A stretch of 64,000 bases of DNA from an uncultured Bacteroidales bacterium (lineage in GTDB: Bacteria > Bacteroidota > Bacteroidia > Bacteroidales > Barnesiellaceae). Under the pieces are notes generated by a model. That model worked only from the letters and a program-made list of their open reading frames with translations, did not search any database and was not told the DNA's origin. Below, piece by piece: positions 22,881 through 49,403 of the stretch. The stretch covers positions 186,001-250,000 of the forward strand of contig CASFYQ010000002.1 in assembly GCA_949298955.1 (NCBI GenBank). Reading direction: 5' to 3'. Both the position numbers and the translations under genes were made by a program. How positions within the stretch are numbered: the stretch's first letter is position 1; every line of letters starts with the position of its first letter.

Positions 22881-22919
22881 CGCCGAAATGCTCGTCCCGA
22901 GCGTTTCGGCGTTTTTTTT
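22881..22919 (+). terminator. Intrinsic terminator of nqrABCDEF
   Basis: A 14-bp stem (22881-22894 and 22898-22911, one G-T pair) with a 3-nt loop, followed by eight T. It lies 32 bp after the nqrF stop. Confidence 0.93.
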
Positions 22920-45348: not shown

Positions 45349-45801
45349 AGTCTCGAAAAAACGGTTTTAAGTTTTTTTACACCTTCAAGAGCATATCCGG
45401 GCTATTGCCCCAAACGTTTATTCGACAACAATTTACAACCTTGCACCAGCAAAAAATAATTGTAAAAACATATTATAAAACATATTTTTTTATTTGCTTA
45501 TCTGCAAAAAAAAGTTGTCCTTTGTGTCAATAACCTAAAACAATCTTTTTTACCTTAAAAAAATTAATACCTATTGAAAACCTATAAAAAAAGAGCTTTT
45601 GAGAAAAAGCTCTTTTTTTATTCTTCATACCCCCATTAGCTCACCCATTTGCAATCCCTTTACCCACCCGATTGCACCAAGTCACTCCTCCTCCACCAAC
45701 CGCAACGTCTCAACCAGGCAAAACATCGTCTCCTGTACTCTCCTTCCGCAATTTTTCCAGAAAACAATAGAGAAAGCCTTTACTTTTATTGATCCATTTT
45801 A
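45349..45801. other. AT-rich intergenic region between lpxH and the restriction-modification island
   Basis: About 450 bp with no supported gene; it marks the left border of the AT-rich island. It contains one terminator hairpin (45586-45619) and a GATC site (45791-45794) just before the promoter of the methyltransferase. Confidence 0.5.
45586..45619. terminator. Bidirectional intrinsic terminator
   Basis: An 11-bp stem (45590-45600 and 45605-45615) with loop GAGA, an A run on the left and seven T on the right. It separates lpxH from the methyltransferase genes. Confidence 0.78.
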
Positions 45802-45872: not shown

Positions 45873-46784
45873 ATGAAAAGATTCTATACATATCCGGCAA
45901 AACCATTCGTCAAGTGGGTTGGAGGTAAGACTCAACTTCTTGAAGACATAAAAAGGGCTCTACCTCATGATTTATCACAGAGGAAAGATATGATTTATAT
46001 CGAGCCATTTGTTGGTGGAGGAGCCGTTTTATTCTGGATTTTACAAGAGTATCCGAACATAACAAAAGCCATAATCAATGATATAAACGAGGAGTTGATT
46101 TGTACATATCGGGTAATAAAATCAGATGTCGAAAATCTGATTGTCGAATTGACACGAATCCAATCTGAATATCTTGCTCTTGATACGGTTGCACGAAAAG
46201 ATTATTTTCTGTCCAAACGTGAACTTTTTAATGGCCGAAATAATTCTGCCGTTGAAACTGCTGCATTGTTTATTTTTCTCAATCGTACTTGCTTCAATGG
46301 GTTATACCGCGTAAACTCCAAAGGGGAATTTAATGTCCCTCATGGGAGATACACAAACCCCAAAATTTGTGACGAAGGAACATTAAGAGCCGATTCATCT
46401 GTTCTACAACGAGTTGAAATTCTTTGTGGAGACTTTGCACAAACAGGCAAATATGCTGGCGACCATGTTTTGTATTATTTTGATCCTCCATATCGACCGC
46501 TAACAGAAACCTCCGCATTTACCTCTTACGCAAAAGATGGATTTGACGATAGGGAGCAGATACGGCTTCGAGATTTTTGCGAACAGATTGCCCAACATAA
46601 ATCTTTGTTTGTTGCAAGTAATTCAGACCCCCAAAATGTGAATAACGGAGATGACTTTTTTGACCATCTTTACAAAATGTTTTCCATCAAACGAGTCTCT
46701 GCCGCGAGAATGATAAACTCAAAGAGGAACGGGCGTGGGGCTATTTCCGAGATAATGATTTCGAACGTTGCTAATGCATACTGA
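45873..46784 (+). CDS. Dam-family adenine methyltransferase, DpnM-like (M1, GATC)
   Basis: 303 residues from the ATG at 45873 (MKRFYTYPAKPFVKWVGGKT). The SAM-binding motif VKWVGGKTQLLEDI comes first and the catalytic motif DPPYRPLTETSAF near residue 205, the order of the Dam/DpnM class. IYIEPFVGGGAVLFW and FLNRTCFNGLYRVN are also typical. It should methylate adenine in GATC, judging from the DpnII-like neighbour. The frame is intact. It is the first gene of an M1-R-M2 operon in AT-rich DNA. Confidence 0.9.
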   Translation: MKRFYTYPAKPFVKWVGGKTQLLEDIKRALPHDLSQRKDMIYIEPFVGGGAVLFWILQEYPNITKAIINDINEELICTYRVIKSDVENLIVELTRIQSEYLALDTVARKDYFLSKRELFNGRNNSAVETAALFIFLNRTCFNGLYRVNSKGEFNVPHGRYTNPKICDEGTLRADSSVLQRVEILCGDFAQTGKYAGDHVLYYFDPPYRPLTETSAFTSYAKDGFDDREQIRLRDFCEQIAQHKSLFVASNSDPQNVNNGDDFFDHLYKMFSIKRVSAARMINSKRNGRGAISEIMISNVANAY

Positions 46785-46785
46785 T

Positions 46786-47642
46786 ATGAGAGATTTTGAT
46801 GCTTGGCTTGCGGGTTTTAGACCATCTATTGCCGATTATAAATATTATATCGATTTCAAAAAAGTATTCAATAATGTAGAGGCTATAAAAATCCCTCTCA
46901 ACATCTTGAACTCTCTTATTGGATCAAAAAATATTGAAGATGAATTTAAAAGCATCTTGACACAATATCCCGAGACTTTAAATTGTATTCCTATTCTCTT
47001 GGCGAAACGGGAACTCGATATTATGGCTATGGACGAAGAAGGCCAAATTGATTTTCATTTCGACAAACCCAACTGTACAAATGAGGAGCATACCAAATTC
47101 ATGCGCAAGACCGGGTTGTTTGATTTAATGGAAAATCATATTGTCAACAATCTTGTAGACTATGTCACAGGCATAGAAACCGGACTTGATTCCAACGGCC
47201 GCAAAAACCGAGGAGGACACCTGATGGAGAATCTCGTGGAAAGTTTCCTTTGTAAAGCCGGGCTGTGAAAGGAGAATCATATTTCAAGGAAATGTATATC
47301 CATGAGATAGAAGCCAAATGGAGTATAGATTTGTCTGCTATCTCTAATAATGGTGGTGCGGAAAAGAGGTTTGACTTTGTTGTAAAAGGTGAAAATATCG
47401 TTTATGGGATAGAGACCAACTTTTATACCAGAAGCGGTTCCAAATTGAACGAGACCGCCCGCAGCTATAAAACCATTACATTAGAAACCAGAGATTTAAA
47501 ATCATTTAAATTTGTTTGATTTACCGATGGTTGTGGTTGGCATCGTGCAAAAAACAATTTGAAAGAGACCTTTGATATTATGGAACATTTGTACAATATT
47601 ACAGATCTTGAGAATGGAATAATATCAAAAGTGCTTATCTAA
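46786..47642 (+). pseudogene. DpnII-like type II restriction endonuclease, broken
   Basis: Two frames together give a DpnII-family protein of about 285 residues. The first part (MRDFDAWLAGFRPSIADYKY) runs to a stop at 47266-47268 after SFLCKAGL; the family continues in another frame from about 47265 (KGESYFKEMYIHEIEAKW), so one base is missing there. The second part (ISNNGGAEKRFDFVVKGEN, YGIETNFYTRSGSKLNETAR) meets TGA at 47517-47519 where FVWFTDG is expected, a Trp codon changed to stop. The rest (FTDGCGW to NITDLENGI) ends at 47642. Two lesions make it inactive. The start is taken just after the M1 stop. Confidence 0.85.
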
Positions 47643-48525
47643 ATGACAACAGCTTACTATAAGTCAAAGAATAGGGACTTTACCCTTTTGAAAGGGAATT
47701 GCATCGAACTATTGGATTCATTTGATTTCAAGTTCGATATGATTTTCGCAGATCCTCCTTACCATCTTTCAAATGGAGGTATCAGCGTCCAAAGCGGTAA
47801 AATGGTATCCGTAAATAAAGGCGATTGGGACAGGTCCAACGGTTATGAAGAAGATTATCTGTTTGATAAATCTTGGATTATGGCCTGTCGAAACAAACTG
47901 AAAAGCGATGGAACCATCTGGATAAGTGGCACTTATCACAACATTTTCTCTGTATCCCGATGCTTGACCGAATTGGGATTCAAAATATTGAACTGTATTA
48001 CATGGGAGAAAACAAATCCGCCGCCCAATTTGTCCTGCAAATATTTCACTTATTCTGCCGAGTATATTCTTTGGGCCCGCAAAGAACCCAAAGTGCCCCA
48101 TTTTTTTTAATTATGAACTTATGAAAAAAATCAATGGTGGCACTCAGATGCGTGATGTCTGGCGATTACCGGCAATAGCACGATGGGAAAAATCTTGCGG
48201 CAAGCATCCCACCCAAAAACCATTGTGTGTTCTTTCTCGTATCATTCAGGCATCAACACTCCCGGGTGCATGGATTTTAGACCCATTTACCGGAAGTAGC
48301 ACAACAGGTATCGCTGCAAGCCTGTTGGGGCGCCGCTTCCTTGGCATAGATCAAAATGAGGAGTTCTTGAAAATGAGCAAAGCTCGTCGCGAGGAAATCG
48401 ACAACACCTCCAAACGTACTCTATATTTAAATAAACTTCAAGTACAATCACCTTTGTTTGAAGAACCAGAATTAGACTCCCTTAAAGAGCCTTGTATGTA
48501 TTATGGGTTGGATTTGCCTTTTTAA
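47643..48525 (+). pseudogene. DpnA-like adenine methyltransferase (M2), frameshifted at a T run
   Basis: The first frame (to 48108) has the catalytic DPPYHLSNGG near residue 39 and ends RKEPKVPHFF with a stop just after eight T (48101-48108). The second frame continues the protein: LMKKINGGTQMRDVW, CGKHPTQKPLCVLSRII and LDPFTGSSTTGIAA, the SAM-binding motif. Removing one T joins both into a 293-residue protein of the DpnA type, which methylates GATC on single- and double-stranded DNA. It is either a phase-off allele or a pseudogene. The ATG follows the endonuclease stop without a gap. Confidence 0.85.
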
Positions 48526-48549
48526 TAGGCATACGGCAAACAAATATCT

Positions 48550-48789
48550 TTCCAGAAAACAAGAAGCGGTTCGACAAAAAACTCAGGCAAACTTGATTTT
48601 TTACGCTCGCCTTTCGCTATATTGGGATAATATAAGATGCAGTTCGGGATAAAAAATATCTGAAACGATGTTTCGATATTTTATTCTCCGCTCACCTTTC
48701 GCTATATTTGCATATTGCGAAAATAGGATGCGGCTCGGCAAAAAGTTCAAACATGTTTGGCTTTCTGCCCTCGCCTTTCGCTATATTTG
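48550..48789 (+). repeat. Dispersed promoter repeat, three tandem units upstream of the DUF151 gene
   Basis: Three related units of about 80-90 bp. Each ends in CTCGCCTTTCGCTATATT or close to it: 48605-48625 (box TATATTGG, degenerate), 48690-48710 (box TATATTTG) and 48770-48789 (box TATATTTG). Units two and three carry inverted repeats GAAAC-GAT-GTTTC (48662-48674) and CAAACATGTTTG (48748-48759). The last box would start transcription about 17 nt before the GTG at 48813. Related units lie upstream of priA, ispD and the DUF5106 gene. Confidence 0.75.
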
Positions 48790-48812
48790 TATTTCTATAA
48801 ATCGAAAGAACC

Positions 48813-49403
48813 GTGGAAAATCGCATCAAATTAAAGGTTTTAGGGTTGACATACAGCCAAATAAAGAAGGGAGCGTATGCTTTGGTCCTGGCCGAAGAGG
48901 AGGGCCCCCGCCGTATTCCCGTGGTAATAGGAGTAGCCGAGGCCCAGTCGATAGCCATCTCGCTCGAAGGCATAATACCTCCCCGCCCCATCACGCACGA
49001 CCTCTTCGTGAGTTTCGCCCACGGTTTCGGCATACGGTTGAAAGAGGTGTGCATCTATCGTTTCGAAAATGGAGTATTCTCCTCCGAGATGATTTTTCAC
49101 GACGGCACCCGCGAGATACGAATCGACGCCCGCACCTCCGATGCCATAGCCATCGCCTTACGCACTCGCTCGGATATCTATGTGATGCGCGATATTATCG
49201 AAGAAGCCGGTTTCATTTATGAAGAGAATGACGACAAGGAGAACCCCCGAAACGAGAAAGGACCGACCGGTGACGACCGCAACCTGTCGAGTTGCTCGCG
49301 CAAGGAGTTGAAAGAACGGCTCGAGAAAGCTATCGCTTCGGAGGCTTACGAAGAAGCCGCCCGCATACAGGAAGAGCTGAATAAAAGAGATAATAACTTG
49401 TAA
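48813..49403 (+). CDS. DUF151 bifunctional nuclease family protein with UVR motif
   Basis: 196 residues from a GTG at 48813. The N-terminal BFN/DUF151 domain (residues about 1-130) has LVLAEEEGPRRIPVVIGVAE, IRIDARTSDAIAIALRTRSD and the linker DDKENPRNEKG. A C-terminal UvrB/UvrC-type motif follows (ELKERLEKAIASEAYEEAAR near residue 165). Plant relatives have nuclease activity; the role in bacteria is not known. The promoter is the last copy of the tandem promoter repeat. Confidence 0.87.
   Translation: MENRIKLKVLGLTYSQIKKGAYALVLAEEEGPRRIPVVIGVAEAQSIAISLEGIIPPRPITHDLFVSFAHGFGIRLKEVCIYRFENGVFSSEMIFHDGTREIRIDARTSDAIAIALRTRSDIYVMRDIIEEAGFIYEENDDKENPRNEKGPTGDDRNLSSCSRKELKERLEKAIASEAYEEAARIQEELNKRDNNL

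Follow-up and report, generated by a model that had tools for sequence, protein, structure and literature searches.

Does a run of eight T inside a DpnA-like methyltransferase gene switch that gene on and off, or does it mark the loss of the gene? The run lies in a 64,000-nucleotide stretch (the window) of a Barnesiella-group genome, contig CASFYQ010000002.1, where a reading made from the sequence alone had proposed possible phase variation. Very probably, the window instead holds a DpnII-type operon in early decay, in which the genes for the restriction endonuclease (R) and the second methyltransferase (A) were recently lost, the first methyltransferase (M) is kept as a solitary GATC-type methylase, and the run of eight T (T8) is a one-base slip.

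Operon layout and gene identity

The three genes of the operon, and the elements of A that matter here, are as follows.

45873..46784, + strand: M, an open DpnM/Dam-like (D12 class) adenine methyltransferase gene (Pfam MethyltransfD12, 4.5e-65)
46768..47642 (start approximate), + strand: R, a broken DpnII restriction endonuclease gene (Pfam DpnII PF04556, two pieces, 3.6e-57 and 1.2e-23)
47643..48110, + strand: N-terminal part of A, 155 aa, its ORF ending at TAA 48108-48110 (PF01555, 2.7e-24)
47751-47762, + strand: DPPY motif, N-terminal part of A
48101..48108, + strand: T8 run at His-Phe-Phe codons, the frameshift point of A (sequence and alignment)
48121..48525, + strand: C-terminal part of A, 134 aa, in the other frame (PF01555, 3.5e-25)
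48205-48222, + strand: HPTQKP motif, C-terminal part of A
48280-48297, + strand: DPFTGS motif, C-terminal part of A

The M protein scores 293.2 bits against NCBIfam TIGR00571 (dam; cut-off 114.85) and runs in a single frame along the protein of a genus mate, with no lesion. The intact A protein of a genus mate (L012) has relatives in the PDB in CcrM (6pbd, 3.9e-56) and in a protein deposited as DpnA (5hek, 7.7e-30). The DpnII system of Streptococcus pneumoniae (DpnM, DpnA, DpnII) likewise combines a Dam-type methylase with a Pfam DpnII endonuclease and a second, DpnA/CcrM-like adenine methylase; the roles of the pneumococcal proteins are taken here from parts of one paper (PMC3573125). Unlike that system, the window has the gene order M-R-A, and its R and A are broken. 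The M-R-A order is shared with other Bacteroidales operons, in Candidatus Barnesiella excrementavium (L020, in the same record as L012, genome G001) and in genome G008 (L013), and the identity between window and L012 proteins is 83% for M, 85-87% for R and 82-92% for A. In both of those genomes, unlike in the window, R and A are open. The window therefore has an intact Dam-type (D12) M and a PF04556 gene, together with an R and a DpnA-kind methylase that are not full length; judged from its sequence, the operon is a decayed member of the DpnII type rather than a working system, with GATC as its predicted target.

The break in the second methyltransferase gene

T8 is flanked by A at 48100 and at 48109 and arises from T-ending codons for His-Phe-Phe. 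In an alignment with 12 relatives, this region of A is one base longer in the window than in any other sequence. Both halves of A match Pfam N6_N4_Mtase (PF01555), over profile positions 2-109 and 136-220, so that the sequence, the ORFs and the Pfam halves all bear out the earlier claim that T8 breaks the DpnA-like gene. That reading had also predicted a protein of 293 residues once the frame is restored, and A in the genus mates is indeed one open gene of 293 aa. The catalytic motifs fall on either side of the break, DPPY before it and HPTQKP with DPFTGS after it. Each part of A alone would therefore, from the order of the motifs in such enzymes, lack half of the active site.

The split gene might nevertheless work, through slippage of RNA polymerase or of the ribosome at T8 or through a restart of translation at ATG 48121, with a small amount of full-length protein or a methylase built of two chains as the product. 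That ATG, the start of the C-terminal ORF, lies only ten bases past the TAA, and transcription insertions in E. coli and Buchnera climb exponentially with the length of an A/T run, according to part of one study (PMC5574713). However, a restart would require assembly of two chains, given that each part is without half of the active-site motifs. In addition, conservation of a 9-base run has been taken as a sign of purposeful slippage, in a passage of another study (PMC1088944), whereas the T-run of A is not conserved. A working split gene is thus extremely unlikely.

Lesions in the endonuclease gene

The sequence-only reading did not include the lesions of R, which lie just upstream of A. Alignment with 12 relatives places a frameshift in R near 47264/47265, and none of the 12 has it. 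At 47517-47519 stands an in-frame TGA; the codon there is TGG (Trp) in each of the 12 aligned relatives. R gives two matches in the window's own genome, with one TGA in each, and both of its pieces score above the cut-off. Neither lesion sits in a long homopolymer, and on their sequence a substitution-type stop and a frameshift outside long runs do not resemble homopolymer errors.

The three genes in relatives

The relatives of A were taken as the best 80 named loci from a search with its C-terminal part, and the openness of genes was judged first by script and then by reading flagged translations by eye. Within these 80 loci, A is open over at least 85% of its length in 71; the others are at a contig edge (5), partial (3) or frame-split (1). 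R is open in all 59 loci where it could be judged, 58 by script and one (L056) because its flagged stop precedes the start of R; in the remainder it is absent or too distant (20) or at a contig edge (1). M is open in 61 loci as well as in L066 and L081, where the translations place the flagged stops outside the genes, and is otherwise absent or too distant (14), at an edge (2) or partial (1).

Sampling of the order more widely, PF04556 was matched in 24 of 295 genomes. Among 18 judged loci of this set (G008 and 17 others), R is open in 15, reaches a contig edge in one, has a true internal stop in one (G075), and in one (L188, G085) has apparent stops in its 5' part, close to a contig end. The idea that R is commonly broken in relatives too was rejected, with a true internal stop confirmed in L187 (G075). 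Loss of R thus occurs elsewhere too, but seldom in these samples. As an observation in its own right, the L187 locus of that other Bacteroidales genome combines its in-frame stop in R with open M and A.

Within the genus, A is carried by three of nine genomes, the window genome included. Phage and plasmid records searched with the operon gave no match. Viral contigs contain five loci with DpnA relatives, A being open in four and partial in the distant fifth, and a degenerate T7 pattern had no matches in these contigs.

Possible phase variation

In the proposed switch, the T-run would flip between seven and eight and so turn the DpnA-like methyltransferase on and off. The case for it is that a homopolymer sits midway through a methyltransferase gene, that a one-base change regains the full frame, and that relatives with a run of seven exist (L016, L017 and L042). 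In this the locus is like phasevarion methyltransferase genes, where a repeat frameshift also lies inside the gene, there in poly-G/C or tetranucleotide tracts; unlike in those genes, the window run is short, is A/T and is not conserved. At the matching place among the best 80 loci, a run of eight occurs in none, a run of seven in the three named and a run of at least five in only nine, and the run is interrupted in both genus mates in the 12-relative alignment. The repeat is thus not kept in homologues. It is also shorter than the 10 or more that a Campylobacter phase-variation survey set as its poly-A/T cut-off, as given in part of that paper (PMC6321876). In portions of another study (PMC3711429), frameshifted genes without frameshifted homologues are put down to mutation or error, and a cluster of such frameshifted genes is required before phase variation is called.

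Equally long runs are common in unbroken ORFs of the genome. Exact T8 matches in the 2.54-Mb genome number 145 and 138 on the two strands, and the 64-kb window has eight A/T runs of at least eight. In a sample of 52 such runs, from 27 stretches picked for holding them, 21 are inside predicted ORFs that stay open for 200 aa or more, and 11 of these keep a distance of 90 nt or more from either end. By ORF layout, the T8 in A is judged the sole window run of at least eight inside a real gene, though the run at 22912, which sits in an overlapping ORF, may be another. T8 therefore looks locally somewhat more exceptional than the genome sample implies, which counts a little against the gene-loss reading.

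Finally, the partner gene R is broken by lesions outside long homopolymers, so a slip back at T8 would not restore the system. An on/off switch is therefore very improbable. Likewise highly unlikely is a version in which a DpnA-like methylase has outlived R and regulates jointly with the open Dam-like M, the run switching it reversibly at a low rate. Of the earlier account of the cause, what stands is that the T-run breaks the gene and that slippage of a shorter run by one base is the likely cause, plain mutation having been named there as an alternative; the switch does not, given a run that is short and not conserved and an R that is dead. The locus illustrates that a methyltransferase frameshifted at one homopolymer is easily mistaken for a contingency locus if the adjacent gene is left unchecked.

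Sequencing error or real lesion

One-base indels in homopolymers are a common type of sequencing error, and a single assembly was examined, so T8 might be an error of sequencing or assembly, with A intact in the organism. However, 17 window genes between about 39 kb and the window end form one frame each against genus mates, so errors are not widespread in the sequence. Non-coding sequence at 45451-45623 is 97% identical to G001, where it follows the same gene, and A/T runs of at least eight occur in open ORFs elsewhere in the genome. R, for its part, contains a stop of the substitution type, which is not a homopolymer error. With 17 open neighbours and R lesions that are not error-like, real lesions are favoured, and an error that hides an intact A has very little probability. 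T8 is the least certain of the three lesions, but it too is favoured as real.

A probable course of early decay

In the preferred reading, that of a decaying DpnII-type operon, a horizontally mobile operon would have lost R first, by frameshift and nonsense mutation, and A second, through a one-base expansion of the T-run at the His-Phe-Phe codons, presumably by slippage from T7. Pneumococcal A (DpnA) shields incoming single-stranded DNA from DpnII, according to part of the study cited above (PMC3573125); with R dead, A would have nothing to protect against and would be dispensable. M, which is open, would persist, and is probably active as a solitary methylase, with GATC as its predicted specificity. 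On this reading the two broken genes are unremarkable pseudogenes of recent origin within an operon of a known type, and the locus captures an early stage of loss fairly cleanly, with the nuclease and accessory methylase dead and the maintenance methylase open. A literature search on restriction-modification methyltransferases of Barnesiella found no related paper.

Age and origin of the operon

Pairwise dN/dS of the window R pieces against 10 relatives is 0.02-0.04, two further pairs being saturated in dS, and that of the window A pieces against 10 relatives is 0.04-0.08. Both are within the range seen between intact relatives, which suggests that the loss is recent. Counted over sites that the 12 others share without variation, the window has five changes in R, three in A and none in M; the same count gives 0-3 for both R and A among the ten nearer relatives, and for the two most distant it gives 8 and 18 in R and 7 and 13 in A. 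The small surplus of R at these sites is no clear excess of amino-acid changes, which counts against the decay reading, and it is the lesions alone that point to decay. Missense changes would be expected alongside the lesions if decay were old.

The operon is AT-rich, with a GC content of about 0.35-0.44 compared to about 0.47-0.57 in the flanks. In G001 and G008 it lies elsewhere in the genome than in the window genome, and a shared insertion site was rejected on these grounds. Among the best 80 loci, the C-terminal part of A is 86 and 85% identical to loci labelled Phocaeicola or Muribaculaceae, compared to 83% for a genus mate. The different site, the closeness of this part of A to such loci and the AT-richness together fit horizontal movement of the operon. 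A 17-nt imperfect direct repeat is found near the operon ends, at 45751-45767 and 48546-48562, and may be due to chance.

The idea that GATC avoidance reflects a long shared history with the operon was considered and rejected. The observed/expected ratio for GATC is 0.26 in 229 kb of the window genome and 0.25-0.58 in six genus mates in which A was not found, with values of 0.34 and 0.37 in other Bacteroidales loci. Since avoidance also occurs without A, it cannot be tied to the operon. Across the window genome and sampled stretches of all eight genus mates, with or without A, the ratio is 0.25-0.58 for GATC and 0.00-0.12 for CTAG, which is thus nearly missing.

Neighbouring and related sequences

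Upstream of the operon, 45424-45619 (+ strand) matches the Bacteroides sRNA BTnc060 (Rfam RF04184) over its full length but below threshold, at 55.3 bits compared to a gathering threshold of 228.9 (E 9.2e-07), and is possibly a Barnesiella homologue of that sRNA.

Downstream, repeat units of about 80 bases that end in CTCRCCTTTCRCTATNTTTG stand in tandem ahead of the gene at 48813, with matches at 48599-48629, 48684-48714 and 48763-48793. The pattern, with at most one mismatch, has 70 matches in the window's own genome, often in tandem, and the reversed pattern has none. Similar arrays precede the counterpart of the gene at 48813 in several genus mates. A TAnnTTTG-like promoter box forms the end of the unit.

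A second damaged methylase locus is found in the same genome (L123, 1961-3600; G000:C7, about 213460-215100), where two tandem D12 genes are in pieces, one of them broken beside an imperfect short tandem duplication.
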